Translations under genes and position numbers: made by a program | The notes under the pieces: generated by a model | Databases searched by the model: none | What the model was told of the DNA's origin: nothing | What the model saw: only the letters and a program-made list of their open reading frames with translations | Assembly (NCBI GenBank): GCA_947471985.1 | Contig: CANIZL010000042.1 | Span: 1-52,728, forward strand | Direction of reading: 5' to 3' | DNA: 52,728 nucleotides | Origin: Verrucomicrobiota bacterium | Lineage (GTDB): Bacteria > Verrucomicrobiota > Verrucomicrobiia > Limisphaerales > UBA9464 | Shown: in pieces, positions 3,762 to 24,977 of the stretch | Numbering within the stretch: the first letter of the stretch is position 1 | Layout: each line of letters starts with the position of its first letter

Positions 3762-4181
3762 TTACTTGAAAGCCATCAGCAGGGTGCCGGCGGCGATGAG
3801 CCCGGCGCCGGCGTATTCCCGGGCGGTGAGTTTTTCGCCGAGGAACATCGCGGCCAGCGCGAGGACCAGCACCACGCTCAGTTTGTCGACGGGGGCCACC
3901 TGGGACGCCTTGCCCAATTGCAGGGCGCGAAAGTAGCAGATCCAGGAAGCGCCGGTGGCGAGCCCCGACAGCGTGAGGAAGATCCACGTGCGGCGCGACA
4001 GCGAACCCAGCGGTGATTCGCTCAGCCCGGGAATTGCCAGCAGCCACGTAAAGCCGAGCACCACGGTCGTGCGCACAGCCGTGGCGACGCCGGAATTCAC
4101 TCCGGTCACGCCCAGCTTGGCCAGCACGGCGGTAACGGCGGCGAAAACGGCGGAGAAGAGAGCCCAGGGCAGCCAGTTCAT
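3762..4181 (-). CDS. Half-size EamA/DMT-superfamily transporter (COG2510-like)
   Basis: This 139-residue integral membrane protein has about five hydrophobic segments and the EamA pattern: an N-terminal 'ALFSAVFAAVTAVLAKLGV', a central 'GLATGASWICYFRALQLG', and a C-terminal 'APVDKLSVVLVLALAAMFLGE'. EamA proteins are drug/metabolite carriers, and single-domain 5-TM members are thought to dimerise. The ATG at 4181 (M-N-W-L-P-W) puts the start directly before the first membrane segment; a longer reading to 4217 would add a polar, unlikely leader. It lies downstream of prmA on the same strand, 70 bases after its stop, and may be the last gene of that operon. The substrate is unknown. Confidence 0.8.
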   Translation of the reverse strand: MNWLPWALFSAVFAAVTAVLAKLGVTGVNSGVATAVRTTVVLGFTWLLAIPGLSESPLGSLSRRTWIFLTLSGLATGASWICYFRALQLGKASQVAPVDKLSVVLVLALAAMFLGEKLTAREYAGAGLIAAGTLLMAFK

Positions 4182-4251
4182 GAACCCAGCATGCCCCGGA
4201 TCGGATCTGCCCGCCAAGAGGATTGGCCGGGCCGGATGAACGAACCGCGCT

Positions 4252-5145
4252 TTAACGACTGAAACGACCGGAGCGCCACTCCTTGCGGGTGCGCGCGGCC
4301 ACGAGCTTCAAACCCGCGGCTTCATAGGCGGCCTGCACGGCGGGGAATTGCGTCGCCAGAATGCCGGCGAGGATGATTTGGCCCGTGGGAGCCAGCCGCG
4401 CGAGCAATCGGTCCCGTTCGGAAATCAGCAGGTCGTAGATCAGGTTCGCACAAATGACGTCGTGCTTTTCGGCGCTGCGCCGGGGTAGTTTGGTGACGTC
4501 GGCGAGGACGGGGCGCACGAGGGTTTCGACGCCGTTCAGGACCGCGTTTTCTCCGGTGATGCGCACGCAATCGGGATCGAAATCAAACGCCTGAACCGGA
4601 TGATAGCCGAGTTTCGCGGCCGCGATGGCGAGGATGCCGCTGCCGGTGCCGGCGTCCAACATGGACTGGGCGGTTCCCGCGCGACGACAGGCCACGAGTT
4701 GTTCGAGGCAGAAATGCGTGGTGGCGTGCTGGCCTGTGCCAAAGCTCATGCCGGGATCCAGCACCACGACCTGCTGTCCCACCCGCGGCTTGCGCGTGGA
4801 CCAGGTGGGCTTCACCAGCAACGTGCGGCCGAGGTCGATGGGTTTGAAATGCCGCTTCCAGGATTCGCTCCAATCCTGCGCTCGCACCCGGCGGACCTGC
4901 ACCCGGGCGGGCGACGGGTCGACGCCATCCGCGCGCAATTGGGCGAGCGCGGCGCGGAGTTGGCGTTTCACTCCGGTCACGGCGGGATCCGTCAGGGAGG
5001 CGTAAACGCTGACGGTGATGGCCCCGGTGCGGACGTCGTGGTAGGTGCTGGGGGATTGATTGAGTTCGCGCTCCAGCAACTCCGTCACGGCCTCTTCGGC
5101 CAGGGCGTTGGTGTGCAGGGCCACTTGTCGGAGGACGGCTTTCAT
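4252..5145 (-). CDS. prmA: Ribosomal protein L11 methyltransferase
   Basis: PrmA trimethylates lysines and the N-terminus of ribosomal protein L11 using S-adenosylmethionine in the cytoplasm. The N-terminal ~110 residues form the L11-recognition domain. The SAM fold follows, with the diagnostic 'DPGMSFGTGQHATTH' segment, glycine-rich motif I 'LDAGTGSGILAIAAAKLG' and 'CANLIYDLL' in place of the usual N-PP-type motif IV. The ATG at 5145 overlaps the stop of the upstream phosphatase gene as ATGA, which points to translational coupling; an in-frame ATG at 5157 is also possible. The resulting 297 aa is normal for the family. Confidence 0.92.
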   Translation of the reverse strand: MKAVLRQVALHTNALAEEAVTELLERELNQSPSTYHDVRTGAITVSVYASLTDPAVTGVKRQLRAALAQLRADGVDPSPARVQVRRVRAQDWSESWKRHFKPIDLGRTLLVKPTWSTRKPRVGQQVVVLDPGMSFGTGQHATTHFCLEQLVACRRAGTAQSMLDAGTGSGILAIAAAKLGYHPVQAFDFDPDCVRITGENAVLNGVETLVRPVLADVTKLPRRSAEKHDVICANLIYDLLISERDRLLARLAPTGQIILAGILATQFPAVQAAYEAAGLKLVAARTRKEWRSGRFSR

Positions 5146-5771
5146 AGATCGCGCCACGGGGTGAAGTTCAGCAGTTGCACTTCGTTGCGGCCGCGGCCGG
5201 ATTGCACCTCGCCGACAGTGACCCAGGTGCAGCTGGCGTAGTCCACTTCGAACGATTCGAACCGGGTCAGCGGCAAATTGAGCAGCACGGACAGCAGTCC
5301 GCGGATGACGCCGCCGTGGCAGAACACGGCCACCCGACGACCCCGTTGCTCGGCGAGGATGCGATCCAGACAGCCGCGGAGTCGACCGGTGAAAACCTCG
5401 GCGTCCTCGCCTTCGGGGAAGCCGGCGGTGAACTGGTGCAACCAGTCAAAGGCGCTCACGCTGAAATGCTCCTGCACCTCGTGCCAGCTCAGTCCGGTCC
5501 AGGTACCAAAATCCACTTCGCGCAGATCGGGCAGGGTGACGCCGGGGCAATCGCATCGGGCGCGCCACGGGGCGGCGGTGAGCTGCACCCGCTGCATCGG
5601 GCTGAAGTAGGCGGCGTCGATTTCGCGGCGGCTGAGCCATTCCGCCAGACGTTCCGCCTGATCGTGGCCGGTGGGACTGAGGCCCATATCGATCCGGCTG
5701 CCGCCGAACTTGCGATGGTAGCGTTCCTCGACCTCCGCGTGCCGGCACAGAAAAAGTTGGGTACCACTCAC
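5142..5771 (-). CDS. Histidine phosphatase family protein (CobC/GpmB-like)
   Basis: This is a 209-residue phosphoglycerate-mutase-fold phosphatase. The catalytic N-terminal motif reads L-C-R-H-A-E (usually RHGE), with His11 as the expected phospho-acceptor. The second conserved His lies in 'AVFCHGGVIRGLL', and the 'REVDFGTWTGLSWHEVQ' stretch contains the conserved acidic residue. Family members hydrolyse small phosphate esters such as alpha-ribazole phosphate, phosphoglycerate or sugar phosphates; the substrate cannot be chosen, since no cobalamin genes are nearby. It starts with GTG in a 4-base GTGA overlap with rph, and its stop overlaps the prmA start, so the three are co-translated. Confidence 0.85.
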   Translation of the reverse strand: MSGTQLFLCRHAEVEERYHRKFGGSRIDMGLSPTGHDQAERLAEWLSRREIDAAYFSPMQRVQLTAAPWRARCDCPGVTLPDLREVDFGTWTGLSWHEVQEHFSVSAFDWLHQFTAGFPEGEDAEVFTGRLRGCLDRILAEQRGRRVAVFCHGGVIRGLLSVLLNLPLTRFESFEVDYASCTWVTVGEVQSGRGRNEVQLLNFTPWRDL

Positions 5772-6496
5772 GCGAGGGCCTCCTGTTGGCGCCGCAGCAG
5801 TTCGGTGATGCCGGACCGGCCCAGGCGGAGCATTTCCTCCAGCTGCGTGCCGCTGAACGTGGCTTCCTCGCCGCTGGCCTGAAGTTCAATAAATTCACCT
5901 GCACCGTTCATCACGAGATTCATATCCACCGAAGCGGCGGCATCTTCTTCGTAATTCAAATCCAGCACCGGTCGGCCGCCCACGACCCCGAGACTGACGG
6001 CGGCGATGGGTTGGACCGGACTGGTGGTGATCTTGCCAGTGGCCTGAAGCTTCTTCATGGCCAACGCCAGCGCGACGTACGCACCGGTGATCGAGGCCGT
6101 CCGCGTTCCGCCGTCCGCCTGCAACACATCGCAATCCACCCACAAGGTGCGCGGACCGAGCGCCTCCAAGTCGAGAACGGCGCGCAGCGAACGCCCGATG
6201 AGCCGCTGGATTTCCACGGATCGACCGTCCTGCTTGAGTTTGCTGATGTCGCGGGCTTTGCGATCCAACGTGGAATAGGGCAGCATCGAGTATTCCGCGG
6301 TGATCCAGCCGCCGGGTACTTTTTTCACCTGCATCCATTTGGGCACGCTTTCCTCGACGGTGACGGCGCAGATGACGCGGGTGTTGCCCCACTCGATGAG
6401 CGTGGAGCCGGTGGCATGCGGCGCGATGCCGTGCTGAAAGCGGAGGGGCCGTAACGCATCGGCCGCGCGTCCATCCGGACGCAAGAGAGCAGTCAT
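5768..6496 (-). CDS. rph: Ribonuclease PH
   Basis: RNase PH is a phosphate-dependent 3'-5' exoribonuclease that trims tRNA precursors and works as a hexamer. The 242-residue product is full length, with canonical segments: 'MTALLRPDGRAADALRPLRF', 'GNTRVICAVTVEE', 'GWITAEYSMLPYST', 'EIQRLIGRSLRAVLDL', 'VDCDVLQADGGTRTASI' and 'DLNYEEDAAASVDMN'. The phosphate-site Arg falls in the 'GGTRTAS' stretch. The ATG at 6496 begins 9 bases after the upstream methyltransferase stop. No frameshift of the E. coli K-12 rph kind is seen. Confidence 0.96.
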   Translation of the reverse strand: MTALLRPDGRAADALRPLRFQHGIAPHATGSTLIEWGNTRVICAVTVEESVPKWMQVKKVPGGWITAEYSMLPYSTLDRKARDISKLKQDGRSVEIQRLIGRSLRAVLDLEALGPRTLWVDCDVLQADGGTRTASITGAYVALALAMKKLQATGKITTSPVQPIAAVSLGVVGGRPVLDLNYEEDAAASVDMNLVMNGAGEFIELQASGEEATFSGTQLEEMLRLGRSGITELLRRQQEALA

Positions 6497-6505
6497 GCCC
6501 GCAGA

Positions 6506-7285
6506 TTAGGAACTGCGCGGCCCGGGGCCAGAAACTCCCGGGGCCGGCTTTCGGGCCACCACCCCGACGCCCACGTAGATGGCCGCCGGATGCCGGGCGT
6601 CCACCACACCGTCCGCGGCGAAGGCTGCGGCCAGGGCATTCAGCACCGGTACACCCGTCCAGAAATGGAGCCGACGGATCACGGCGAAAAGTGCTTTCCA
6701 GAACGGCTGGCCCGGCGCCCGCAGTCCGCCAATCAGGTAATGCCAGATCTGCAGGGATCCGCGCGGACCGGTCGTCAACTTGGTGCTCCGCTCGATCATA
6801 AAGCCCGCTGCTTGTGTGGCATTTTCGAGACCCACCGCCGTCCAACGATGGAAATCGTACGGACATCCGTGCTCTTCAAACATCCCGTGCGTGGTGAGCA
6901 GGAGACGTCCACCCGGCCGCAGAATTCGCCAGCATTCCCGCAGATAAGCCGCGGGATCGGGGACGTGTTCCAGGACCTGGGTCGACAGGATGGCGTCGTA
7001 GTGATCCGCGGGCTCTTCGGTCAGACCATTGGGCAGCAGTCGGCAGTCGACATTGGGCCCCGGGGTGATGTCGGCGCGGACGTACCGGGTGATGCCCCGG
7101 AACAGCGACCGATACGGCCCGCCGCCACTCCCGTAATCAAACAACGAACCCTGCACCTCCGCGGCGAAGGGGCGGACCATCCCGAGGATGTCCTGCAGGA
7201 TCAGGCAATGTTCATCGCGCCAACGGGGCTGCAGCCGGCTGGCCACATAGGCTTCGTTGTGCAGCGTCTCGCTGAGCGTGGGCAC
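6506..7285 (-). CDS. Class I SAM-dependent methyltransferase
   Basis: The 259-residue product has a Methyltransf_11/25-type fold. Motif I is 'GSLFDYGSGGGPYRSLF', the acidic strand ends in 'RADITPG', and post-motif segments are 'DAILSTQVLEHVPDP' and 'RILRPGGRLLLTTHG'. A GTG start at 7285 (P-T-L-S-E-T-L) lies 14 bases after the preceding methyltransferase gene and gives a compact protein. A longer reading to 7609 would run over that gene as a Pro/Arg-rich antisense-like extension and was discarded. Its place after another methyltransferase and a flippase suggests glycan or lipid-linked sugar modification. The substrate is unknown. Confidence 0.8.
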   Translation of the reverse strand: MPTLSETLHNEAYVASRLQPRWRDEHCLILQDILGMVRPFAAEVQGSLFDYGSGGGPYRSLFRGITRYVRADITPGPNVDCRLLPNGLTEEPADHYDAILSTQVLEHVPDPAAYLRECWRILRPGGRLLLTTHGMFEEHGCPYDFHRWTAVGLENATQAAGFMIERSTKLTTGPRGSLQIWHYLIGGLRAPGQPFWKALFAVIRRLHFWTGVPVLNALAAAFAADGVVDARHPAAIYVGVGVVARKPAPGVSGPGPRSS

Positions 7286-7299
7286 GGGTGGTGGTGGGG

Positions 7300-8265
7300 T
7301 CAGGAGGGTTTGCGGTAGAGGGCGTGGAGGCTGATGCCTTTCTGTACCCAGTGACGGAGGAACAGCGCCCGATACAGGAAGGTGAGCACCTGCGGCCCGA
7401 AGCTGCCGGGCTGGCTCTTGCGCCGGCCCAGCACGAATTCGAGTTCCCGCTGGAGCTTCAGATAGAAACGCAGCGCGCTGCCCCGGAGCAGATCGCCCTC
7501 GACGGAGACGGTTTCGAGTCCGTGGAGTTCGCCCAGTCGGCGCAGGTCCTGGGCGCGCCAGCGGGTGAGGTGATGCGGTGGCCATTGGTGGGGCTCGAGG
7601 GAGCACCAACCGTGGACGCCGGCGTCGTTGGGCACGGCGAGGGCCAGGTACCCGCCCGGTGCCACCAGGGCGGCGGCTTCCTGGAAGAAGGCTTTGGGAT
7701 CCGGAACGTGCTCCATGACTTCAAACGCGGTGACCAGCGCGAAGCTTCGTCCGGGGCGCCCGGCCGCATAGGCTTCCGCGGTGCAGCACTGCACAGCGTG
7801 GCCCCGGGCGCAGCAATCCGCCGCGGCATCGGGGTTCAGATCCAGACCGTGGGTGGTCAATCCCTCGGTGCGGGCGGCGTCGAGAAAATATCCGGCGCCG
7901 CATCCCAGATCCATGATCTCACGGATTTTTTCGCGGCGGGCGACGGCCAACGTGCGGGCGAATGCCGGGCAGGTTTGCGGATAATACTCGCGGTATTGCC
8001 GCTGGAGATCCGCGTAAAACGCGCCGTTCCCGGGGAGGGAAGGATGGAAAAAGCGGAAGCCGCACGCCCGGCACTGCTGGAGTTCCAGCGCGGAAATGCC
8101 GTCGAAGACCGCCGTGGCGGCCGCGCTGAACTTCACGCCGAGATGGAACCAGATCAGTTCCAGTTCCCGCGGGGTCAGCCGGTCCTTCACCTGGACGTCC
8201 GTGCCCCCGCAGAGAAAGCAGCGGGGTCCGATGACGGGAGCGGAGGCAGAAGCAGTGACGGACAT
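7300..8265 (-). CDS. Class I SAM-dependent methyltransferase with N-terminal Cys4 motif
   Basis: This 321-residue methyltransferase starts with a probable zinc-binding unit: C-F-L-C near residue 17 and C-R-A-C near residue 65. The Rossmann core follows, with motif I 'IMDLGCGAGYFLDAAR', 'HGLDLNP' and 'VTAFEVMEHVPDPKAFF'. Such Cys4-methyltransferases are common in polysaccharide and secondary-metabolite loci. It begins 9 bases after the flippase stop and ends 14 bases before the next methyltransferase start, so the three form one unit. It probably methylates a glycan component; no acceptor can be named. Confidence 0.85.
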   Translation of the reverse strand: MSVTASASAPVIGPRCFLCGGTDVQVKDRLTPRELELIWFHLGVKFSAAATAVFDGISALELQQCRACGFRFFHPSLPGNGAFYADLQRQYREYYPQTCPAFARTLAVARREKIREIMDLGCGAGYFLDAARTEGLTTHGLDLNPDAAADCCARGHAVQCCTAEAYAAGRPGRSFALVTAFEVMEHVPDPKAFFQEAAALVAPGGYLALAVPNDAGVHGWCSLEPHQWPPHHLTRWRAQDLRRLGELHGLETVSVEGDLLRGSALRFYLKLQRELEFVLGRRKSQPGSFGPQVLTFLYRALFLRHWVQKGISLHALYRKPS

Positions 8266-8274
8266 GCGATATCG

Positions 8275-9762
8275 TCAGAAGTGGGAAGCCAGAGCGCGGA
8301 CGTCAACCCTGCCCTCGCGGGAAGCGCGCCAGGCGGCCCACGCGGTGAAGAGGCCCAGGGAGAAAACGGTGGCGGCCGCGCCCACGGCCATGGTGGCGGG
8401 CCAACTCCGGGCCCATTGCATCAGAAAGAGGGAGCTGGCCCCGGCCACGGCGACGGCGGCCACGGCGCGGCCCCCGACCGCCAGGAAATGCGCACCGGGC
8501 CGCACGCCGGCGGCCTTCGCATACGCCCAGGGCAGGGGACCGGCGACGCCGAAGAGTGTGGCCAAGGTAAAGGCCCCCGCGACCCCCGCGGCCCCGAAAC
8601 GCGGGGCCAACACGAAGCTCAGGACGACGGCCACGACAAATTCCAGTCCGAGATGGCGGGCGATTTCGCTGAACTTTCCGTGCCCGTAGAGATAGTACGC
8701 CGGTTGCGAAGCCAGGCCCGTGAACAGATACCGCAGCGCAAACAGCCACAGCACGATGGCGGCGGGCTGGAGATTCGGGGTGTAGGCCCCGACAAACTGA
8801 TGCAGGGTCACCGCGGCGACGGTCATCACCACGCCGTAGACCACGGCATTGATGCGGACGAGGGCGGACGAGGTGCGGGTCGCGCCGACGTCCGCGGCCG
8901 CCAGCCGGGGCCAGATGGATTCATCGGCCGACTGCAAAAAGCGCCGGATAATGGTGAACAGATTCGCGGCGAGGGTGATTTCGGAAGCCGCCGCGTTGGT
9001 CAGGAGATGCGGGGCCAGGAGAAAATCGGCGGCGTACAGAAACAGCATGACCAACTGACAGACGAACGCCGGCGCCGCATCGCGCCAGAGCTGGCGGAAC
9101 AGTTGGGTGAACTCCGGGTTCCAATGGAAATCCAGTAGTCGGACCCCGGGCAGCTCCACCCGCGCGAGCCACCACGCCAGTGCGGTGGGCACGGACAGAA
9201 AGGCGAATTGCGCGATGGGAAAGGCCCATTGGACCTGCCCGGAACGAAACAGCAACCACAGGGTGCCCACATACAACCAGGCGCCCAGGGCGTTAAGGGC
9301 GAAGAGGTGTCGCTGGCGGCCGAGGCCGACCAGCAATTGGGTCTGGGAGCTGCTCAGAACCGCCATGGCCCCCATGAGGCCGAGGGAAAGGTAAAAGCTC
9401 CAGGGTTGATCGGCCTCCCGGGCCTCCGGTGCCCAGCTGTACAGGGTCAACAAGAGGATGCCGAGTCCACCGGCAGCGAGCGCGCCCCAGGAATAGAGCG
9501 CCTGCGCAAAATCCACCAACTGGCGCCGGTCTGCCCCCAAGCCGCCGACCAGCAACCGGCGGTTGATGGCCAGTCGGTAGCCGCCGTCGAATTGCGGCAA
9601 CATGCCCACGACGAGGACGACCGGCATCAGCAGGCCGTACAACGACTTGCCCAGGTAATCGTTGTACAGGCGGTAGGAGATCAGTGAGGTGACGATGGAG
9701 GACACCGTGGACACCAGGCGCCAAAGGGCCGTCTGGCGGAATTCCGATCCAGCGGTGCTCAC
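8275..9762 (-). CDS. Oligosaccharide flippase family protein (Wzx/MOP-superfamily)
   Basis: This 495-residue polytopic membrane protein has about 12-14 hydrophobic segments. It resembles polysaccharide-biosynthesis flippases that move lipid-linked oligosaccharides across the inner membrane. Features include the N-terminal amphipathic 'TALWRLVSTVSSIVTSLISY', the central 'LANLFTIIRRFLQSADESIWPR' region (which matches MOP-family proteins poorly as a motif but well by position), and the Gly/Ala-rich C-terminal helices. It starts at a GTG and heads a tight run with two methyltransferases, which fits surface-glycan export. No polymerase (Wzy) or ligase lies alongside. Confidence 0.75.
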   Translation of the reverse strand: MSTAGSEFRQTALWRLVSTVSSIVTSLISYRLYNDYLGKSLYGLLMPVVLVVGMLPQFDGGYRLAINRRLLVGGLGADRRQLVDFAQALYSWGALAAGGLGILLLTLYSWAPEAREADQPWSFYLSLGLMGAMAVLSSSQTQLLVGLGRQRHLFALNALGAWLYVGTLWLLFRSGQVQWAFPIAQFAFLSVPTALAWWLARVELPGVRLLDFHWNPEFTQLFRQLWRDAAPAFVCQLVMLFLYAADFLLAPHLLTNAAASEITLAANLFTIIRRFLQSADESIWPRLAAADVGATRTSSALVRINAVVYGVVMTVAAVTLHQFVGAYTPNLQPAAIVLWLFALRYLFTGLASQPAYYLYGHGKFSEIARHLGLEFVVAVVLSFVLAPRFGAAGVAGAFTLATLFGVAGPLPWAYAKAAGVRPGAHFLAVGGRAVAAVAVAGASSLFLMQWARSWPATMAVGAAATVFSLGLFTAWAAWRASREGRVDVRALASHF

Positions 9763-14137: not shown

Positions 14138-14170
14138 TTTGAGCCCCCCGAGTCTGCCGGGGGGCTCAAA
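14138..14170. terminator. Bidirectional intrinsic terminator, 13-bp perfect stem
   Basis: TTTGAGCCCCCCG (14138-14150), loop AGTCTGC, and CGGGGGGCTCAAA (14158-14170) pair perfectly. The stem ends in A:T pairs on both sides, which suits termination of thiC and of the convergent kinase gene. The kinase's TGA stop (14166-14168) lies inside the stem. Confidence 0.85.
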
Positions 14171-16412
14171 TCAGTCGCGAACCGACGTCGATTTTGAGCG
14201 TGTTCGGGGATATCGGCGTGGAGGTCGTCGAGGCGGGCTGGGCCGTTCCGACGTAACGACTCCACCAAGCCGTGCGGCGGGCGAGGGTCCAATCGCTGGC
14301 GTGGGGACAAAGGTGCAGGGCGCGGAGGAGTTCTTCCGCGGATTGCGGGCGGCGGGCGGGATCCTTTTCCAGGCAGCTCAGCACCAGGGCCTCAAGGGCT
14401 GCGCTCGGCGGCGGGTTCACCAGCTCCCGCAGCGGCCGGGGCGTGGCGGTCCGGTGTTGTTCCAAAATGGCCGCGGTGGTTTCGCCGGCAAACACCGGAT
14501 GCCCGGTGAGCAGCACGTAAGCCACGGCGCCCACCGCGTAGAGATCGCTCCGCGGATCACCCGCATCGGGGTGGTGGATGGTTTCCGGCGCCATGTAGAG
14601 GGGAGTGCCTTCGACATGGAAGTCGGTGTTTGTGCCCGGCGGGACCGTGGGCTCGCGGAAGCGGCGAACCAGGCCGAAGTCCAGCACCTTGAGCGTGTCG
14701 GCCCGGCCGCCGCGTTCGCACAGGACGAGATTGCCCGGTTTGATGTCGCGGTGGATCAGTCCCGCCGCGTGCGCTTCCTGCAAGGAGCCGCAAATCTGGG
14801 TCAGCAGGTGAATCACCCGCTCCTCGGGCTGGGCGCCAAACCGTTCGACCAATTCCTGCAGGGTGAGGCCCCGCAGCAATTCCATCACGTAGTAGAAAAT
14901 TCCGTCGGCGGTGTGGCCGTAATCGTAGATTTGAATGGTGTTGGGATGGCTCAGTCCGCACGTGAGCTGGACTTCGCGTTCGAACTGCTGGATCAATCGG
15001 GCATCGGCGTGTTCGGGAAGCAGCAGTTTGATGGCGGTCTCCCGACGGAGTAGGGCGTGGCGGGCCCGGTAAACGACGCCCATGCCGCCGGAGCCGATTT
15101 TCTCCTGCAGGGTGTATTGGCCCAGTTGCAGCGCCTTCAGTCGGGCAGCGTCAAATCGACCGCGCCATACGAGGCTCCAATACGTGGTCACCAGGGTCGC
15201 GCCCGTGACCAGCGCGATGAGCAGGACGAGAACAATGAAGATGGATCGCAGGACATACAGCGGTCGAAAGGCCTCGGTCGCATCCAGTTTCGTGGCCACG
15301 CCGAAATTGCGGTCCGGCAGCCAGCGCCAGGCGCCCACCACGGGCACGCCGCGATAATCCCGCTCCGGAATAACACTGACGCCGGAATCGCCCGCCACCG
15401 CCCGGGCCACCATGGGGGTGAGCGAAGTCGCCGAGGCAGCGGTGCCGGGTGAAGCTCCCGCGGTCAGATCGATGCCCGGGTCGGTCAATTCCAAGTTTAA
15501 GGCCGAGCCCGTGCCGGGTTGATTGGTCAGGCGGCCCAGCCGGATGAGTTGCTCGTTGAACCGGCTTTCGGAAATCAACCGGCCGGCCGGATCGAAGGCG
15601 AGCGTTTCGCCGGAGTCGCCCCGGCGGGCGACGGAGAGCACCTTGGTGAATTCCTCATCGGGCCGGAGCACAAACGCGGCGACGGCGAGGACCTTCTGCG
15701 AGGTATCGCGAATGGGCACCAGGACCTCCATGAGATTGAAGTCCGGCCGTCGCGGTCCTCCAGGGCGCTCCGGCCGTGAATCGGATCCCCGCCCGGGACG
15801 ATCGGCCCGGTCCTCGGGTCGACCTTCCGTCGGGCGCCGTCGTGGGCCCTCGCCGCCTGGGCCCGCCCCGGGGCCTGGGGGCAGCCCGGGCGGCCGTCGG
15901 AAGCCTGCCTTGAAGGGAGTGACCAGGACGGGACGTCCGGTTTCGAGCACTTCCTGGACTTGGGCGGCGTGTTCGGTTTCGACCCGCGAGCCCAGTCGGA
16001 GTCGGCCGCGACTGGAGGTGGCGAGGATTTCCAGGTTGGTGCTGAGCAATTGGACGACGCCGAAGCCGGAGGAGCGGATTCGTTCATCCAGCAACCGGCG
16101 GAAGTCCGCCGCCGCGGGGGAGTTTTCCTGTAGCCGCCGATTGCGGGTGCCGGCGCCTGGTTCGGTCAGCAAATTGGTGACGGCGGCGTGCAGGGCGGGA
16201 TCGTCGGCGAGGACGCTGGCCAGGCGGATCTGGGTGTTGATCCAGATTTCGAGGGCGGTGACGCTCGCGTTAAGTCCGGACTCGAGTTCGGCCTGCAGGC
16301 TGGCGTCCAAGGTCCGCTTGACCGCGCGATTGCTCCACCAGCCGAGGAGCAGCACCAGCAGCGTGGCGAGCAGGGGAACACCGAAGGCGAAACGTTTTCG
16401 CGAAAGAGTCAC
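14166..16412 (-). CDS. Transmembrane serine/threonine protein kinase with N-terminal extracytoplasmic sensor
   Basis: The 748-residue protein begins with a membrane segment (residues ~9-27, 'FGVPLLATLLVLLLGWW'). A ~350-residue extracytoplasmic region follows that resembles a Cache-type sensor ('FNLMEVLVPIRDTSQKVLAVAAFVLRPDEEF'). A second membrane segment lies at ~385-410, and the C-terminal half is a Hanks-type kinase. Kinase motifs are intact: 'EKIGSGGMGVVYRARH' from residue ~437, 'HRDIKPGN' (H554, D556), D578-F-G-L and 'GTPLYMAPE'. The sensor-first, kinase-last order is the reverse of the usual PknB layout and looks like a receptor kinase. A Pro/Gly/Arg-rich stretch at ~170-225 interrupts the sensor. 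The start is a GTG. No cognate phosphatase is adjacent. Confidence 0.88.
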   Translation of the reverse strand: MTLSRKRFAFGVPLLATLLVLLLGWWSNRAVKRTLDASLQAELESGLNASVTALEIWINTQIRLASVLADDPALHAAVTNLLTEPGAGTRNRRLQENSPAAADFRRLLDERIRSSGFGVVQLLSTNLEILATSSRGRLRLGSRVETEHAAQVQEVLETGRPVLVTPFKAGFRRPPGLPPGPGAGPGGEGPRRRPTEGRPEDRADRPGRGSDSRPERPGGPRRPDFNLMEVLVPIRDTSQKVLAVAAFVLRPDEEFTKVLSVARRGDSGETLAFDPAGRLISESRFNEQLIRLGRLTNQPGTGSALNLELTDPGIDLTAGASPGTAASATSLTPMVARAVAGDSGVSVIPERDYRGVPVVGAWRWLPDRNFGVATKLDATEAFRPLYVLRSIFIVLVLLIALVTGATLVTTYWSLVWRGRFDAARLKALQLGQYTLQEKIGSGGMGVVYRARHALLRRETAIKLLLPEHADARLIQQFEREVQLTCGLSHPNTIQIYDYGHTADGIFYYVMELLRGLTLQELVERFGAQPEERVIHLLTQICGSLQEAHAAGLIHRDIKPGNLVLCERGGRADTLKVLDFGLVRRFREPTVPPGTNTDFHVEGTPLYMAPETIHHPDAGDPRSDLYAVGAVAYVLLTGHPVFAGETTAAILEQHRTATPRPLRELVNPPPSAALEALVLSCLEKDPARRPQSAEELLRALHLCPHASDWTLARRTAWWSRYVGTAQPASTTSTPISPNTLKIDVGSRLI

Positions 16413-16676
16413 GGGGAAAGTTAACTGGCGGTTACCGGGCGAAGCGGTTGTCCGGACGAGCCCGCCGGATCCGTCGCTTCCACACTGAGAGACTGGGTGG
16501 CGGCGCGTCCGGATACAGGGAACCTCTCGGGCGCGTTCATCTGCCGGGGGGGAAGCGGTGGGCGGGAATTGGGGGCTTGTGGAGGGGCGCTCCGGGTTGA
16601 AGTTCCGGCGGGTGGAGCCAGTGCCCTCACGACCGCATTTGGGCGGACACCGGGTGGCGCTTCGCCGTGTCTCGTG

Positions 16677-17759
16677 ATGAAATTTCTGTCCTGGGTTCTC
16701 CCCGTCCTGCTGGGCGGATTCGTCGGTTGTCGTCCCGCCAGTCCGCCGCCGGTTCAGAAACTGGTGGTGCGTTACGTCGAAGCGGAGGCGATGCGTGGGG
16801 CGAACGTACAGTCGCGCTCCGAATACATCGCCTTGGTGCGGGGTGATGTGGAAACCGAACTGGGCTTCAAGGTGAGCGGCGTGCTGGAGTTGATCGGTCG
16901 GGACGGCGAACGACAGGACTGGCAGGAAGGGGTCGGATTTGCCGGTGGGGAATTGCTCGCCCGACTACGGCAGGAGGATTTTGTCAGCGCGGCGAAATCC
17001 GCTCGCGCCAAGGCTGAGCTCGCCGGAAAGGATTACGAACGCGCCGTCACGTTGCGGAAAGACGGTGCCGTTTCCCAGCAGGAACTGGATGCCAGTTCCG
17101 CCCGGCGAGACTCGGCGGATGCCGCCCTCGCTCAGGCCGAACAGGCCTTGAAGGATTCCGTCCTGCGGGCGGCGTATCCCGGGACGATCCTCACCCGCTT
17201 TGCCAGCGCGGGGGAAACGGTCGCGGTCGGAAAACCCGTGCTCAAGGTGGCCGACCTCCGACAGATGTCGATCGAGCTGGGCGTGCCGGATCGCTTGGTC
17301 GGGCAGATTCGCGTCGGGCAGGAAATTCCGGTCAAAATCTCTGCGTTGGAAGCGTCGTCGTTTATCGGTCGGGTGTCGGAGGTGGGGGCGGCGGCGAAGG
17401 AAGGCGCGCGTTTGTTTCGCGTGGTCATTAAAGTGGCGAATCCGCAGGGCCGGCTGCGCTCCGGCATGACGGCCTCCGTGGCTCCGGGAGAAAGCGTCGC
17501 GTTTGCCGCCGATTCCGTGCTCGTGCCGTTGTCAGCGCTCGTCACGTCCGCCCGCGGCGGTGCGACGAATCAGTTGGCGGTGTTCGTCGTGGATGCCGCC
17601 GGTACTGCGCGCGAGCGGCCGGTCAAGACGGACGATATCCTTCGCAGTTCCATCGTCGTGTCGGCGGGGATCCAGCCGGGCGACAAAGTGGTCACGGTGG
17701 GGGCTGGCACGCTTTATGACGGCGCGCCGGTCGATGCCCGGTTGGCGGAGAAATACTAA
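16677..17759 (+). CDS. Efflux RND transporter periplasmic adaptor (membrane-fusion lipoprotein)
   Basis: The 360-residue HlyD/AcrA-type adaptor links an inner-membrane RND pump to an outer-membrane channel. The N-terminus 'VLPVLLGGFVGC' looks like a lipoprotein signal with Cys18 as the lipidation site, although Phe at -3 is not canonical. A helical hairpin spans ~115-170 ('KSARAKAELAGKDYERAVTLR'). Lipoyl and beta-barrel segments follow: 'AAYPGTILTRFASAGETV', 'KVADLRQMSIELGVPD' and 'QGRLRSGMTASV'. The ATG at 16677 was chosen because it opens directly on the signal sequence; a reading from 16497 adds a Gly/Arg-rich leader. The pump gene begins 11 bases after the stop. Confidence 0.9.
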   Translation: MKFLSWVLPVLLGGFVGCRPASPPPVQKLVVRYVEAEAMRGANVQSRSEYIALVRGDVETELGFKVSGVLELIGRDGERQDWQEGVGFAGGELLARLRQEDFVSAAKSARAKAELAGKDYERAVTLRKDGAVSQQELDASSARRDSADAALAQAEQALKDSVLRAAYPGTILTRFASAGETVAVGKPVLKVADLRQMSIELGVPDRLVGQIRVGQEIPVKISALEASSFIGRVSEVGAAAKEGARLFRVVIKVANPQGRLRSGMTASVAPGESVAFAADSVLVPLSALVTSARGGATNQLAVFVVDAAGTARERPVKTDDILRSSIVVSAGIQPGDKVVTVGAGTLYDGAPVDARLAEKY

Positions 17760-17770
17760 CGGCACACCAC

Positions 17771-20700
17771 ATGTCGTCCTCCCCTGATTCCCTCCCGCGC
17801 CGCGGCGGTCTGGCCCAGTATTTTGTAATTCACCGCGAGGTGGGCTGGATGGCTCTGCTGGCGGTTTTGGTGTGGGGCTGGATCTCCTATCGCAGCCTGC
17901 CGCAGCAGGAGGATCCCACCATTCCGGTGCGCGTGGCGATGCTGGTCACGCCGTTCCCCGGGGCGAGTGCCCTCAAGCTCGAACAACTCGTCACCAAAAA
18001 GCTGGAGGAGAAAATCGATGAGCTGGAATCCATCGAGGAAATCACCTCGCAATCCCGTCCGGGCGTCTCGGTCATCACCGTCAAGCAACGGCCGGATCGC
18101 GCCGCCCGCGTGGAGCAGGAATGGGACAAGCTGCGGGCCAAACTGCGCGAAGTAGTCCTACCCGAGGGTTGCGGAACCCCCAGCCTCGACACCGATTTCG
18201 GGAACACGACCACGCTGCTGTTTGCGTTGACCAGCCCGCCGGGCAGCGAGGCGGAAACCCTCGCCCGCGCCAATTTGATCCGGACGCGGCTGGCGGAACT
18301 GCGGCGCGAAACCGGCTCGCGTGGACGGGCGGCGGCCTTTGCGTTCTATCCACCCACGATTGCCGACAGTTATCGGGCGGTCGTGCGGGAGAAATTCGAA
18401 TCCACGATGCTGCGGGAAAAACTCGGCAGCGACATCAAGACGTTTCAGGGGCGTTCCTTCATCCTGGCCGATTTCCAGACCGGGGCGGATCGCGAGCAAT
18501 TACGTCAATTCGTGGCGCGTTTCAGTCGTGAATTGGGCGGAACGGAGGCCGAGCGGCACCCGGATTTCGGCGCGCCGGTGGTGTTGTTGGGCGACGAAGA
18601 TCCGCTGCCATCCCTCCGGGCAGGGGTGCTGCCGCGGTACAGTTATCGGGATCTGGAGAAGAGCGCGGAGATGCTGGAGGACGAGTTGAAGCAGGTGGGC
18701 AGCGTGGGACGCGTCCGCAAAATCGGCAACGTCAGCGAGGCGGTCGAACTGCTCTTTTCCATACCCGTGCTCAACGGCTTCAACTTCAGCGCCGACGAGG
18801 TGCTCAGCGCCATTGCTTCCCGGAATGCGATCATCCCCGGGGGCACGTTTCGGACGGAGGGACAGAATTTTCCGGTGCAGTTATCCGGGGAATTTCACAA
18901 CGAAGATGAACTGCTGGGAACGATTGTCGGCATGACGCGTCCCAATGGCGCCCCGGTTTATCTCCGGGATCTGTTTGAAGTGCGGCGCGGTTATCAGAAT
19001 CCCATTTCCTACAGCGTCGAAGTGCTGCATCGGCACGGGGAACGCGGCCCGTTGCTGGCGGCCCGGTCGGTTCTGCTCGCCGTGGAAATGAAACAAGGCC
19101 ACATCATTGGCCGGTTCAATGAATCCGTGGAAGCGGTGCTGTCGCAGGCCCGGGCACGATTGCCGGAAGGGATGGAAATCCTGACCTTGTCGGATCAACC
19201 GGAGGCGGTGGCGGTGCGGATCCATCATTTCATGCGGTGTTTCATTGAGGCCGTGGTTGTGGTGGTGCTGGTGGCGCTGCTGTTGATGGACTGGCGTTCC
19301 GCGCTGGTGGTGGCGGCGGCCATCCCCCTGACGGTCTCGCTGACCTTCGGCGGCATGGCGCTGGCCGGCGTGCCGTTGCACCAGATTTCCATCGCCGCGC
19401 TGATCATCGCGCTGGGCATGTTGGTGGATGATCCGGTGGTGGCGTGTGACGGGATCAACCGGGAGTTGGCGCATGGACAGCCGCGCGGCGTGGCGGCGTG
19501 GCTCGGTCCGCACAAGCTGCGCCACGCGATTTTGTTTGGCACGATCATCAACATTGTGGCGTTTCTGCCGCTGGTGTTGCTGCCCGGGGACAAGGGCGCC
19601 TTCATCGTGGCCCTGCCGACGGTGGTGACGCTGGCACTGATTTCGTCGCGCATCGTTTCGATGACCTTCGTTCCGCTGCTCTCGTACTATTTGCTGCGCG
19701 GACAAAAGGGGCTGGAAGCGGGCGGCGAAGTGCGGTCGTTCATTCTGTTTCGGCCCATCGATCATCTGCTGATCGCCGCACTTCCCCGCTATCAAAAGTT
19801 GCTGCACGCGGCGCTGGATCGGCCGCTGTGGACGGTATTCATCGCCTACAGCCTGCTAGTGGCGAGCTTTGGATTGACGACATTTTTCGGCCAGCAGTTT
19901 TTCCCGCCGGCGGAGCGAAACCAATTGCTGATTGATGTGGAGTTGCCGGAATCCGCCTCCCTGGTGCAGACCCGGGGCGTGTGCCAGCAGGTGGTGCGTT
20001 TGTTGCAGGCCCAGGAATCGGTGGCGAGTGCGGCGGTGTTTTCGGGCGGCAGCGCCCCCCGGTTTTATTACAACGTCGTGCCGCGGCAGCCGGTGAGTCA
20101 TTTCGCTCAGATTATCGTCAACACCCGACGCGCCGAGGATGTCCCGCCCCTGGTCCGGCAGTTGCGGACGGCGCTGGACCGGGAGATCGCCGGGGCGCGC
20201 TGCGTGGTGAAGCAATTGGAACAGGGTCCGGCGGTCGAGGCGCCCATCCAGATCCGGCTCACCGGCGGGGATCTCGATTACCTGCGGCGGCAGGCCGATG
20301 CGGTGGCACAGTCCCTGCGCGCGAGCGGCGGGTACCAGGTTCATGACGACCTCGGCCGCCGGACGCCGTCGTTGCAGATCGACATCGATCAGGAACGGGC
20401 GAATACGCTGGCGATTAACAACGTGCAAATCGGCCGTTTGGCGCAAGCGGCCTTTTCCGGACTGAAGGTCACGGAACTGCGGGAGGGCGATCACTTGATA
20501 CCGGTGGTCGTCCGATTGCGCATTGAAGAGCGGAATGAGGCGGAAAAGATCCGCACGCTGTATGTCCGCTCCGTGCGCGGCAGCCTGGCGCCGCTCGACA
20601 GTTTCGCCAGCGTGAAGGTGCAGCCGGAGTACGCCATGATTGCGCACTTCAACAAACTTCGGACCGTCACGGTGAAGGCGTATTCAACCCTGGGTGAATT

Positions 20701-21301
20701 GCCTTCGAAGGTGTTGGCGCGGGCCCGTCCGACGTTGGATCAACTCGAGTTACCGCCCGGATACAAACTGGAATACGCGGGGGAGGCGCGGGAATTGAAG
20801 CAAAGCCAGGATGAGATGGGCTACGTCATGAAGATCTCCCTCGCGCTGATTGCCCTCGCGATGGTTCTGCAGTTCAGCTCTGTCACCAAATCCCTCGTCG
20901 TCATGTTGACGGTGCCTTTGGGGCTCATCGGGGCCTTCCTCGGACTGGCCATCACGGGTGCGTCGCTGGGCTTCATGGCCTCGCTGGGCATCGTCAGCTT
21001 GGCCGGGGTGATCGTCAGTCACATCATTGTGCTGTCCGATTTCATCGAGGAGGCGCGGGCCGACGGCATGGAATTGAAGGCGGCGCTGGTGCAGGCGGGA
21101 TTGGTTCGGCTCCGGGCGGTTTTGGTCACCGTGCTGGCGACGGTCGGTGGACTGATTCCGCTGGCGCTGACCGGGGGCGAACTCTGGCGGCCGCTGACAG
21201 CGGTTCACATCTTTGGGCTGCTGCTGGCCACGGTCCTGACGCTGGTGTTGCTGCCGGTGCTGTACTTCATCTTCTGCGCGAAGCTGAAGTGGATCCGGTA
21301 G
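17771..21301 (+). CDS. Efflux RND transporter permease subunit (AcrB-like, with extra PN1 segment)
   Basis: This 1176-residue inner-membrane proton/drug antiporter has TM1 near residues 27-45 ('MALLAVLVWGWISY') and a first porter loop containing 'VTPFPGASALKLEQLVTKKL'. The proton-relay pair is Asp553-Asp554 in 'GMLVDDPVVACDG', and a second TM bundle ends in 'TVLTLVLLPVLYFIF'. AcrB-type pumps are ~1030-1050 aa with these aspartates near 407. Here about 120-130 additional residues (~159-289) lie between 'TTTLLFALTSPPG' and 'YSYRDLEKSAEMLEDEL', in the first porter subdomain. Substrate class is unknown; heavy-metal-specific signatures were not recognised. It forms an operon with the adaptor, and no TolC-like gene is adjacent. 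Confidence 0.92.
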   Translation: MSSSPDSLPRRGGLAQYFVIHREVGWMALLAVLVWGWISYRSLPQQEDPTIPVRVAMLVTPFPGASALKLEQLVTKKLEEKIDELESIEEITSQSRPGVSVITVKQRPDRAARVEQEWDKLRAKLREVVLPEGCGTPSLDTDFGNTTTLLFALTSPPGSEAETLARANLIRTRLAELRRETGSRGRAAAFAFYPPTIADSYRAVVREKFESTMLREKLGSDIKTFQGRSFILADFQTGADREQLRQFVARFSRELGGTEAERHPDFGAPVVLLGDEDPLPSLRAGVLPRYSYRDLEKSAEMLEDELKQVGSVGRVRKIGNVSEAVELLFSIPVLNGFNFSADEVLSAIASRNAIIPGGTFRTEGQNFPVQLSGEFHNEDELLGTIVGMTRPNGAPVYLRDLFEVRRGYQNPISYSVEVLHRHGERGPLLAARSVLLAVEMKQGHIIGRFNESVEAVLSQARARLPEGMEILTLSDQPEAVAVRIHHFMRCFIEAVVVVVLVALLLMDWRSALVVAAAIPLTVSLTFGGMALAGVPLHQISIAALIIALGMLVDDPVVACDGINRELAHGQPRGVAAWLGPHKLRHAILFGTIINIVAFLPLVLLPGDKGAFIVALPTVVTLALISSRIVSMTFVPLLSYYLLRGQKGLEAGGEVRSFILFRPIDHLLIAALPRYQKLLHAALDRPLWTVFIAYSLLVASFGLTTFFGQQFFPPAERNQLLIDVELPESASLVQTRGVCQQVVRLLQAQESVASAAVFSGGSAPRFYYNVVPRQPVSHFAQIIVNTRRAEDVPPLVRQLRTALDREIAGARCVVKQLEQGPAVEAPIQIRLTGGDLDYLRRQADAVAQSLRASGGYQVHDDLGRRTPSLQIDIDQERANTLAINNVQIGRLAQAAFSGLKVTELREGDHLIPVVVRLRIEERNEAEKIRTLYVRSVRGSLAPLDSFASVKVQPEYAMIAHFNKLRTVTVKAYSTLGELPSKVLARARPTLDQLELPPGYKLEYAGEARELKQSQDEMGYVMKISLALIALAMVLQFSSVTKSLVVMLTVPLGLIGAFLGLAITGASLGFMASLGIVSLAGVIVSHIIVLSDFIEEARADGMELKAALVQAGLVRLRAVLVTVLATVGGLIPLALTGGELWRPLTAVHIFGLLLATVLTLVLLPVLYFIFCAKLKWIR

Positions 21302-22230: not shown

Positions 22231-22415
22231 CGTTACGCCGCAGACAGTAATACCCATCGGACGGTGCGCTTGCGGGATTTTGCCAAAATCCAGTGGTCCA
22301 TTGTCCTGGCCGGCGAGCGCGGTTTTTGGGTTGCGCGGTCGGAAATACCCCGTTCAGGACCGGAAAATGGGCCGGGAAGGGTCGTCTGGGACTTTCCCTG
22401 CGGGTCCCGCCGACG

Positions 22416-24977
22416 ATGCTCCGCCGCATGCGTACGGGACAACCGCGGAAGGGGAATTTGGGGCGGAATTGGGCGGCTTTTGGCCTCGGCTGGGTCGTGG
22501 CGATGGCGGCGTTCGGCCAGGGTTCCCAAGCCGATTACGAACGGGCCAACAGCCTGGCGGCCCGCACGGAGGGGAAAGTGTTTCGGCAACGCATCCGCCC
22601 CAACTGGCTGACCCACCAATCCCAGTTCTGGTACCAGATCGAAACCGCCCCCAAACAGTATGAGTACGTGTGGATCGATGCGGTGTCCGGGGTTCGGAAG
22701 CCGTTGTTGGACCCGGTGCGGGCTCGGGCGGCCCTCCGGGCGCAGGACGCGAAGGTGCCGGCGGACGCGCGCTTGGAAGTGGCGCAGTTTGATGGCCGCG
22801 TGTTGACCCTGCGTTGCGACGGCCGGGAGTGGAGCTATGACCCGGAATCCGACGTGCTGAAACCCCTCGCCACCCCGCCGGGCGCCTCCGGTTTTCGGGC
22901 GCCCGATGCCGGACCGCAGCGATCACGGCGCACCGGGGACAGCGTCGAGGTCACCTTCGTCAATCAAGGCGCCGAGGAAGTGGAACTGTACTGGCTGGAC
23001 GAAGAGGGTCAGCGCCGCAGTTATGGCCGGCTCCGGCCGGGGACGGATCGGGCGCAGCACACTTACGCCGGGCATCTTTGGCTCGTCACGGATCGCGTGG
23101 GAACTCCGTTGGGTATCTGGGAAGCGACGGAGGACCGCCCGCGGGCGATAATTTCGGCGGATCTCTTGAGTCGTCGGGAAACCGCGCCGGCGCCGAAGCA
23201 GGAACCCGCCGCGAAACCGCTCCCGGGAATCTCCCCGGATGGTCGCTGGCAGGCCAAGGTCGTGGCGGATCGACTGGAGGTTTGGTCCACGGCGGCTTCG
23301 GGCGCGTTGTGGTTTCGCAGTCCGGACCGGGGCACCAACGACGTTTACGCGGCGGATTTCAACTGGTCGCCCGATTCCTCCCGGCTGGTGGCCCGTCGGG
23401 TCGTGCCGGCGACGGAGCATCTCGTGCAGTTTGTCGAGGCCGCGCCCCGGGACCAGCTGCAGCCGAAACTGCACGTGCATCGATATTACAAACCCGGCGA
23501 CGCCCTGCCGAAACCACGCCTGGTTTTGTTCACCCTGGCCGCCAAGTCGGAGGTGACCATCGACGAAACGTGGTATCCCAACCCGTTCACGGAAGACGGC
23601 GATCTGGAAGTCGCCTGGAGTCCGGACGGGCGGGAGTTTCGGGTGCCCTACAATCAGCGGGGCCATCAGGTGTACCGCCTGCTGGCGATCGATGGCCAGA
23701 CCGGAGCGGTGCGGGTGGTGGTGGACGAGACGGCGAAGACCTTTGTGGATTGGACGGCCAAGACCTGGCGCCAGTGGTTGGACGCCACCGGGGAACTGCT
23801 GTGGATGAGCGAGCGCGACGGGTGGTGTCATCTGTATCTCTACGACGCGACGACCGGCCGCGTGAAGAATCAGATCACGCGCGGCGAGTGGGTGGTGCGC
23901 CGGGTGGAGCACGTGGATGTCACGGAACGGCAGATCTGGTTCTATGCGGGGGGAATCCGCCCCGGGCAGGATCCCTACCAATTGCATCTGTGCCGGGTGA
24001 ATTTTGATGGCTCTGGATTGGTGATTCTGACCGAGGGGGACGGCCAGCATCAGGCGGAGTTCTCGCCGGACCGCCGCTGGTTTATCGACACGTGGTCGCG
24101 CGTGGATCAACCGCCGGTGATTGAACTGCGGCGCAGCGCGGATGGGAGTCGCGTCGGCGAATTGGAGCGGGCCGATGCGTCGGCCTTGGTGGCGGCGGGT
24201 TGGACGATGCCGGAACGTTTTTCCGCCCGGGCGCGGGATGGGCAAACGGAGATCTTTGGGATCATTGTGCGTCCCTCGAATTTGGATCCCGCGAAAAAGT
24301 ATCCGGTGCTGGAGGAGGTTTACGCCGGACCCCAGGCGGCGTATGTGCCGAAGGAATTCGGTCGGCTGCTCCGGGCGCATCAGTTGGCGGAATTGGGCTT
24401 CATTGTCGTGCAGGTGGATGGCCTGGGTACCAGTCAACGCTCGAAGGCCGTTCAAGATTACAGTTACAAGAATTTGGCGGACGCCGGCTTCGTGGATCGC
24501 ATCGGCTGGATTCAGGCGGCGGCGCGGACGCGTCCCTGGATGGATCTCGGGCGGGTGGGCATCTACGGCGGCAGTGCGGGTGGGCAGAACGCGCTGCGGG
24601 CGCTGCTGGATCACGCGGATTTTTATCAGGCCGCAGTGGCGGATTGCGGCTGCCACGACAATCGCATGGATAAAATCTGGTGGAACGAGCAATGGCTGGG
24701 CTGGCCGGTGGATGAGAGTTATGTGCGCAGCTCGAACGTGGCCGACGCCCACAGGTTGCGCGGCCATCTGCTGCTGATTGTGGGGGAAGTCGATACCAAC
24801 GTGGATCCGGCGTCAACGATGCAGGTGGTGAACGCCCTGGAGAAGGCGGACAAGGATTTTGAACTGCTGGTGATGACGGGTGTGAATCACGGCGCGGGCG
24901 AAACCCCGTACGGCAGCCGGCGGCGGCAGGATTTTTTTGTCCGTCACCTCCTGCAGAAGACGCCGCGTTGGGAATGA
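22416..24977 (+). CDS. Secreted S9 (DPP4-type) prolyl oligopeptidase with inserted VHL-beta-like domain
   Basis: The product is ~853 residues. An N-terminal signal region 'WAAFGLGWVVAMAAFG' indicates export, and starts at 22416 or 22428 are both possible. Residues ~290-630 match the DPPIV N-terminal beta-propeller ('SPDGRWQAKVVADRLEVWS', 'WSPDGREFRVPYNQRGHQVY'). The C-terminal alpha/beta hydrolase has Ser720 in G-G-S-A-G-G, Asp793 in 'GEVDTNVDP' and His825 in 'NHGAGE', a complete catalytic triad. Residues ~172-245 are unlike S9 peptidases and closely resemble the beta domain of the von Hippel-Lindau protein, with W193, Y203, T216, H220 and W222 spaced exactly as in the pVHL hydroxyproline pocket. 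It probably cleaves after proline in extracytoplasmic peptides. Confidence 0.9.
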   Translation: MLRRMRTGQPRKGNLGRNWAAFGLGWVVAMAAFGQGSQADYERANSLAARTEGKVFRQRIRPNWLTHQSQFWYQIETAPKQYEYVWIDAVSGVRKPLLDPVRARAALRAQDAKVPADARLEVAQFDGRVLTLRCDGREWSYDPESDVLKPLATPPGASGFRAPDAGPQRSRRTGDSVEVTFVNQGAEEVELYWLDEEGQRRSYGRLRPGTDRAQHTYAGHLWLVTDRVGTPLGIWEATEDRPRAIISADLLSRRETAPAPKQEPAAKPLPGISPDGRWQAKVVADRLEVWSTAASGALWFRSPDRGTNDVYAADFNWSPDSSRLVARRVVPATEHLVQFVEAAPRDQLQPKLHVHRYYKPGDALPKPRLVLFTLAAKSEVTIDETWYPNPFTEDGDLEVAWSPDGREFRVPYNQRGHQVYRLLAIDGQTGAVRVVVDETAKTFVDWTAKTWRQWLDATGELLWMSERDGWCHLYLYDATTGRVKNQITRGEWVVRRVEHVDVTERQIWFYAGGIRPGQDPYQLHLCRVNFDGSGLVILTEGDGQHQAEFSPDRRWFIDTWSRVDQPPVIELRRSADGSRVGELERADASALVAAGWTMPERFSARARDGQTEIFGIIVRPSNLDPAKKYPVLEEVYAGPQAAYVPKEFGRLLRAHQLAELGFIVVQVDGLGTSQRSKAVQDYSYKNLADAGFVDRIGWIQAAARTRPWMDLGRVGIYGGSAGGQNALRALLDHADFYQAAVADCGCHDNRMDKIWWNEQWLGWPVDESYVRSSNVADAHRLRGHLLLIVGEVDTNVDPASTMQVVNALEKADKDFELLVMTGVNHGAGETPYGSRRRQDFFVRHLLQKTPRWE

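Follow-up and report, generated by a model that had tools for sequence, protein, structure and literature searches.

The human von Hippel-Lindau protein (pVHL) is the well-known hydroxyproline reader of oxygen sensing and is much used in drug design. Here we describe a bacterial gene whose product, a probably secreted peptidase of the S9 family, carries a VHL beta domain (VHL-S9 peptidase). The gene lies on a stretch of 52,728 nt from a Verrucomicrobiota bacterium (hereafter the window), which is an entire contig (C42) of its source genome (G000; G and L numbers are our labels for genomes and loci). In pVHL, the hydroxyproline pocket is formed by W88, Y98, H110, S111, H115 and W117. S111 and H115 hydrogen-bond the 4-hydroxyl and Y98 the carbonyl in a buried site, and F91 and P99 line side pockets (excerpt of PMC9528729). 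The bacterial trans-4-hydroxyproline pathway draws on four superfamilies, 4HypE, DAAO, DHDPS and aldehyde dehydrogenase (excerpt of PMC4113996). In Streptomyces coelicolor, HypR is the repressor of the hydroxyproline operon and likewise of a secreted M9 collagenase (excerpt of PMC6608401), which sets a precedent for tying secreted proteolysis to the hydroxyproline pathway. An in silico study has already described a predicted secreted protein with a VHL domain, from Litorilituus sediminis; the excerpted text of PMC9002001 does not mention a peptidase and discusses the protein as a tumour suppressor. Our searches of the open-licence PMC literature returned no report that connects a peptidase bearing VHL with hydroxyproline catabolism. 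The main new evidence is the genomic linkage of VHL-S9 genes to hydroxyproline-catabolism genes.

We consider it likely that the secreted S9 peptidase uses its inserted VHL domain as an exosite for trans-4-hydroxyproline and that its products feed catabolism. The W-Y-T-H-W pocket would hold the hydroxylated pyrrolidine of a substrate peptide in the manner of pVHL, and cleavage of the chain bound at this exosite would fall to the S9 domain. The cleavage products would be taken up and trimmed by proline peptidases. Free hydroxyproline would then pass to a 4-hydroxyproline epimerase, an enzyme of the D-amino-acid-oxidase family and finally a deaminase of the DHDPS family. From these data we infer hydroxyproline binding, a preference for hydroxyproline over proline, the exosite role, secretion, the order of events and the natural substrate, which may be collagen-, extensin- or algal-wall-like peptides. 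The first-pass annotation of this DNA had suggested that the enzyme recognises hydroxyproline. This reading gains independent support from the linkage to hydroxyproline-catabolism genes in several lineages, and the near-invariance of the five pocket positions in S9 proteins, which other bacterial VHL domains do not share, points the same way.

The gene and its predicted parts are as follows.

22416-24977 (+): coding sequence of the S9 peptidase with VHL beta domain, 853 aa from the likely start ATG 22416; the reading frame is open from 22251 to 24977
22416-22517 (+): residues 1-34, by eye a putative signal peptide with a basic N-terminus, then a hydrophobic stretch and A-F-G ahead of QGSQ
22920-23093 (+): VHL beta domain, PF01847 match by Pfam; the fold match of the model covers 22914-23135
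22992-22994 (+): W193, counterpart of pVHL W88 (this and the next four by alignment to pVHL and among S9 VHL domains)
23022-23024 (+): Y203, counterpart of pVHL Y98
23061-23063 (+): T216, counterpart of pVHL S111
23073-23075 (+): H220, counterpart of pVHL H115
23079-23081 (+): W222, counterpart of pVHL W117
23361-24116 (+): DPPIV_N beta-propeller, PF00930 match by Pfam
24375-24950 (+): Peptidase_S9 catalytic domain, PF00326 match by Pfam
24573-24575 (+): catalytic Ser720, in GGSAGGQ (this and the next two invariant in 23 rows of S9 alignment A3)
24792-24794 (+): catalytic Asp793
24888-24890 (+): catalytic His825

The peptidase holds a true VHL beta domain. PF01847 matches residues 170-227 of the piece translated from 22413 at an E-value of 5.8e-11, with 42.7 bits against a curated cut-off of 21, and phmmer against the PDB finds human pVHL at E ~1e-7. 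Where the first-pass annotation had seen about 30 residues aligned to pVHL without gaps, the first ~50 aligned residues are gap-free. When the domain was modelled alone (predicted local distance difference test, pLDDT, 87.1), all 50 structure matches listed were chains of VHL complexes, including complexes with hydroxylated HIF and with capped hydroxyproline ligands. Examples are 6gmn_C (Z 11.2, 1.3 Å over 74 residues) and 4awj_C, a complex with capped hydroxyproline (Z 11.0, 1.4 Å over 74 residues), and the model shares 32% identity with pVHL over 74 residues. The profile search and the structural comparison, both of which had been proposed as checks, agree on the domain, with a predicted fold that is that of pVHL. 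Two other origins of the match were considered and rejected: chance similarity, given the Pfam score, the phmmer match and the fold match of the model, and contamination with a eukaryotic gene, given the presence of PF01847 in 36 of 58 related genomes, among them 25 of the 35 that belong to the family of the window.

In common with human pVHL (PF01847), the domain has the predicted beta fold and the five pocket positions, with a single S-to-T exchange, at the same spacing (W-10-Y-13-T-4-H-2-W). The numbering and identity of W193, Y203, T216, H220 and W222 as pocket counterparts were confirmed from ATG 22416. Unlike pVHL, it sits in a peptidase, and none of the 11 Pfam matches with an E-value of 1 or below is a VHL C-terminal (alpha, elongin C-binding) family. 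E and G stand at the positions of F91 and P99, so that the side pockets differ from those of pVHL. Along the protein, Pfam places VHL (5.8e-11), DPPIV_N (1.1e-37) and Peptidase_S9 (1.6e-38) in this order. The earlier description placed the VHL domain before the peptidase; alignments to DPP4 and predicted strands correct this, suggesting an insertion that follows the first blade of the propeller.

The five pocket positions are near-invariant in S9 proteins. After identical VHL domain rows were counted once (126 reduced to 118 S9 domains), all five pocket positions were kept in 113 of 118. W88 and H115 are present in all 118, Y98 in 117 (one F) and W117 in 114 (four F), while position 111 is S or T throughout (110 T, 8 S); N78 is found in 118 and H110 in 90. 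When the 75 columns are ranked by entropy, the lowest seven are N78, W88, H115, Y98, G114, W117 and S111, and the five pocket positions are all among them (hypergeometric probability 1.2e-6, with columns treated as independent). Outside S9, 15 VHL domains were compared: five from sulfatases (two assigned by eye), four from one MACPF protein, one each from a SASA and an LRR protein, two stand-alone and two of unknown context. All five pocket residues occur in three of these (L094, L098 and L052). H115 is H in seven, A in six and N in two, Y98 is Y in nine, and W117 is W in all 15. The difference between S9 and other domains is strong for the complete pocket (Fisher p 6.5e-11) and for H115 (118/118 versus 7/15, p 3.3e-9), relatedness being ignored in both tests.

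This pattern bears on whether the five residues serve the fold rather than a ligand, with the VHL domain gating or bracing the propeller. W117 and N78 are also kept in 15/15 non-S9 domains, and part of the conservation is therefore fold-related. Judging from the alignments, conservation is only partly structural, though, since Y98 (9/15) and H115 (7/15) vary outside S9 without loss of the domain, most such domains still passing Pfam. In addition, VHL-less S9 proteins exist and VHL presence changes five times on the S9 tree, so that the enzyme can fold without a VHL domain. We regard a purely structural role as very unlikely.

A different ligand is also conceivable. The pocket could recognise glycosylated hydroxyproline or the glycan of hydroxyproline-rich glycoproteins, which would make the domain an accessory binding module that targets wall polymers of algae or plants. 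VHL domains do occur near the C-terminus of sulfatases, in two neighbouring genes at L105 and in two sulfatase-like genes upstream of the VHL-S9 gene at L140. Their pockets differ from those of the S9 proteins, however: among five sulfatase VHL domains, H115 is replaced by A in four and Y98 by R in the fifth. Moreover, the 4-hydroxyl bound by pVHL is hydrogen-bonded in a buried site (excerpt of PMC9528729), which would leave little room for a sugar. We give glycan recognition hardly any credence.

In several lineages of relatives, the VHL-S9 gene is linked to hydroxyproline-catabolism genes. PF05544, the proline racemase family, is present in 42 of 58 related genomes and in some of them shares a contig with the VHL-S9 gene. 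For this reason, flanks were searched with seeds for HypE (4-hydroxyproline-epimerase family), HypO (D-amino-acid-oxidase family) and HypD (DHDPS family), with HypD-like and HypO-like genes called by similarity at E < 1e-20. The loci came from a scan with alignment A3, which finds only S9 relatives. Of the best-scoring 80 of at least 581 S9-family relatives, 76 have VHL and 4 lack it, a VHL-bearing share that is biased upwards by this choice; many of the 80 named loci stem from the same genomes as the numbered relatives. Among the four VHL-less relatives, three have a linker at the domain's place, and the fourth (L185) is cut nearby by a contig end. L182, L189, L191 and L208-L212 are VHL-less members of this S9 family in which a linker replaces the domain.

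Within 586,237 bp of flanking sequence around the 76 VHL-S9 loci, HypE-like genes were found at 19 loci, HypD-like genes at 15, HypO-like genes at 11 and at least two of the three at 15. On the assumption of one copy per 4.5 Mb, 0.13 HypE genes would be expected by chance against the 19 found (Poisson 1e-34, relatedness ignored). At 13 of these 19 loci (e.g. L168, L131 and L126), the HypE frame, measured between stops, abuts the S9 frame or overlaps with it. HypO lies between HypE and S9 in L138 and L139, and HypE is more distant in L144, L159, L119 and L181, in the last of these on the opposite strand. In Chthoniobacter flavus (L168), one strand carries HypD (1772-2716), HypE (4036-4968), the S9 frame (4863-7337) and HypO (7324-8571). 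L131 and L104 share the order HypD, M24, HypE, VHL-S9, POT, HypO, in which the M24 gene encodes an M24/AMP_N peptidase. Representatives of the neighbours were assigned by Pfam to PF05544, PF00701 and PF01266, and the closest NCBIfam models for the epimerases are 4-hydroxyproline epimerases. The HypE homologue of G022 has, by eye, both cysteine motifs, a feature of Cys/Cys epimerases (excerpt of PMC4113996). On the S9 tree the linkage label changes 10 times, and linked rows, among them an Armatimonadetes metagenome-assembled genome (MAG; L138), lie in well separated parts, an observation that is descriptive.

With the trans-4-hydroxyproline clusters described in the excerpt of PMC4113996, these loci have three superfamilies out of four in common, which in relatives are linked to VHL-S9; unlike in those clusters, a VHL-bearing peptidase belongs to the set. 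The HypR regulon of S. coelicolor likewise pairs hydroxyproline catabolism with a secreted protease, there an M9 collagenase. Its regulator is GntR-like (excerpt of PMC6608401), whereas VHL-S9 loci often have a PAS-AraC gene nearby (PF08448 and HTH_18 in L149), homologues of which lie in the flanks of 13 of 76. This gene accompanies hydroxyproline genes in L149, L132, L153, L148, L168, L126, L159 and L096 and occurs elsewhere without them, including near close relatives of the window locus (e.g. L034, L036 and L044); it was also noted near VHL-S9 in L112. The window itself has no PAS-AraC homologue. It is possible that the PAS-AraC protein is a shared regulator of these loci.

A rival reading has plain proline, a turn rich in proline or some other small molecule as the ligand of the VHL pocket; the enzyme would then serve the degradation of proline peptides in general, and the link to hydroxyproline genes would reflect a general diet of proline-rich peptides. 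M24-type peptidases are found near 8 of the 76 VHL-positive loci (POT transporters near 2) and near the VHL-less L191 alike. VHL is also found attached to sulfatases, to a SASA esterase and to a MACPF protein, for which hydroxyproline is no obvious target, and a strong PF05544 match is missing from 13 of the 18 phylum-sample genomes that have VHL. On the other hand, the positions of S111 and H115, which bond the 4-hydroxyl, are S/T and H in 118/118 S9 domains, with H115 kept in 7/15 elsewhere, and the linked genes make up the hydroxyproline pathway as a set. We thus hold a plain-proline specificity to be unlikely.

Several observations nevertheless weigh against the proposed hydroxyproline exosite. 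The window, at its full length, contains no homologue of HypE, HypD or HypO, and HypE is absent from the flanks of 57 of 76 VHL-S9 loci, many of which lie on short contigs. The HypD-like and HypO-like families are both large. Complete HypE proteins score 363-402 bits (e.g. 401.8 versus 450), below the curated NCBIfam cut-offs of 442-450. Hydroxyproline genes flank 0 of 8 VHL-less S9 loci (L185, which has no flank, is not among the eight) versus 19 of 76, a difference that is not significant (p 0.12). PF05544 at E < 1e-50 is absent from the 13 VHL-positive phylum-sample genomes mentioned above (window's genome excluded). Finally, within the window's family PF05544 is nearly universal whether VHL is present (24 of 25 genomes) or absent (9 of 10), and finding it there is uninformative.

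Genome-wide co-occurrence of VHL and the epimerase is moderate. When the window's genome is set aside, 5 of the 18 phylum-sample genomes with VHL have PF05544 at E < 1e-50 versus 22 of 269 others (one-sided Fisher p 0.018), and in two of those five (G274 and G300) it lies near the VHL gene on the same contig. These counts rest on 37 matches in 288 genomes, of which 31 exceed the cut-off and the 28 at E < 1e-50 were counted; weak matches in the VHL-positive G064 and G107 were scored as absent. Among 23 genomes of the order outside the family, PF05544 is found in 5 of 7 with VHL-S9 versus 4 of 16 without (p 0.05). It also occurs in 3 of 14 control genomes, once above the cut-off. A general rule that hydroxyproline catabolism needs VHL-S9 was rejected, as 22 of 27 phylum-sample genomes with PF05544 (E < 1e-50, window's genome excluded) lack VHL. 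Many bearers of VHL-S9 thus either break hydroxyproline down by another route, set it free without consuming it or put the enzyme to wider use. The window's genome has matches to HypO (66% identity) and HypD (68%), both on other contigs, and its HypE-family gene (G000:C104:6757-7668, L202) contains one in-frame TAG, which may reflect an error of assembly, gene decay or recoding.

PF01847 is found in 36 of the 58 related genomes (window's genome counted) versus none of 14 control genomes, and in 19 of 288 phylum-sample genomes, again counting the window's genome. Of 53 proteins scanned, 43 have DPPIV_N and 43 have Peptidase_S9. VHL-S9 proteins come from Verrucomicrobiota, Planctomycetota, Armatimonadota and one Poribacteria MAG; MAG names such as Klebsiella or Akkermansia among the relatives are probably mislabels. 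The S9 tree was built with FastTree on the last ~560 residues of 91 rows, and 27 of its 88 inner branches are poorly supported. Rows for L185, L207 (equal to L191) and L211 (a near-copy of L210) were omitted, and seven VHL-S9 rows from the relatives were used. Alignment A2 left out 7 of 60 open reading frames (L033, L037, L048, L051, L057, L059 and L066), and alignment A4 comprised the window and 92 of 114 references. In the S9 tree, the window's sequence groups most closely with MAGs of Verrucomicrobiota. As a stand-in for a prolyl hydroxylase made by the bacteria themselves, PF13640 (2OG-FeII_Oxy_3) is present in 11 of 58 relatives, including the window's genome.

Hydroxyproline reading by VHL could be an old bacterial device for scavenging nutrients, carried on secreted peptidases of Verrucomicrobiota, Planctomycetota and Armatimonadota, which eukaryotes later adopted for oxygen sensing. 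We consider this scenario possible but doubtful; transfer in the opposite direction is likewise conceivable. If the proposed hydroxyproline exosite is correct, the VHL fold would gain a second biological role and a testable origin story, and the domains would offer naturally occurring reagents for the recognition of hydroxyproline in peptides of collagen or plant walls. The VHL-S9 peptidase may help bacteria to feed on collagen- or plant-wall-like peptides, a possible route by which little-studied bacteria degrade hydroxyproline-rich proteins.

We class the peptidase family as S9/DPPIV_N-fold rather than as DPP4. Its full-length model (pLDDT 93.2, predicted template modelling score 0.88) matches bacterial DPP4 with Z 29.2, though at a large root-mean-square deviation of 6.9 Å over 611 residues. 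With bacterial DPP IV of the S9B group (2ecf, 5yp1) it shares the propeller and alpha/beta hydrolase fold (Z 29), the Ser-Asp-His triad, PF00930 and PF00326. It differs in its VHL insertion, in GGSAGGQ around the catalytic serine, where the usual DPP4 motif is GWSYGG, and in the deletion of the Glu-Glu segment. The Glu-Glu pair of DPP4 anchors the substrate N-terminus. Compared with the classical S9 sequence in L185, the segment that contains WVYGEE is deleted, and W[VIL]Y[EG]E was found in none of 74 other named sequences with CHDNRMD. With this segment missing, dipeptidyl activity should not be assumed. Of the earlier label "DPP4-type", the domains, fold and triad hold and the Glu-Glu segment does not; the complete Ser720-Asp793-His825 triad was confirmed and, like the motif CGCHDNRMDK (residues 744-753), is invariant in the 23 rows. 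L185:1-3678 (+) is a single open frame that encodes a VHL-less S9 protein of this family followed by the classical S9 protein with WVYGEE. Secretion of the VHL-S9 peptidase is probable from the signal-peptide-like start, which was read by eye.

VHL domains were also seen in other architectures. The sulfatases with VHL near the C-terminus are located at L105:4876-8661 (-), with two neighbouring genes, L063:4396-6249 (+), with one (these by Pfam), and L140:1699-5297 (+), where two genes, sulfatase-like by eye, lie upstream of HypE and VHL-S9. A MACPF protein of 1663 aa (L108:391-5379, -) has four VHL-like domains, none with all five pocket residues. The VHL domain stands alone in L094 and L098, is combined with LRR in L049 and with a SASA esterase in L056, and has an unknown context in L038 and L052.

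Upstream of the peptidase gene in the window, 16497-21301 (+) encodes an HlyD-type fusion protein and an AcrB-type RND transporter, an ordinary arrangement. Further upstream, 14166-16412 (-) encodes a protein of 747-748 aa with a protein kinase domain (PF00069).

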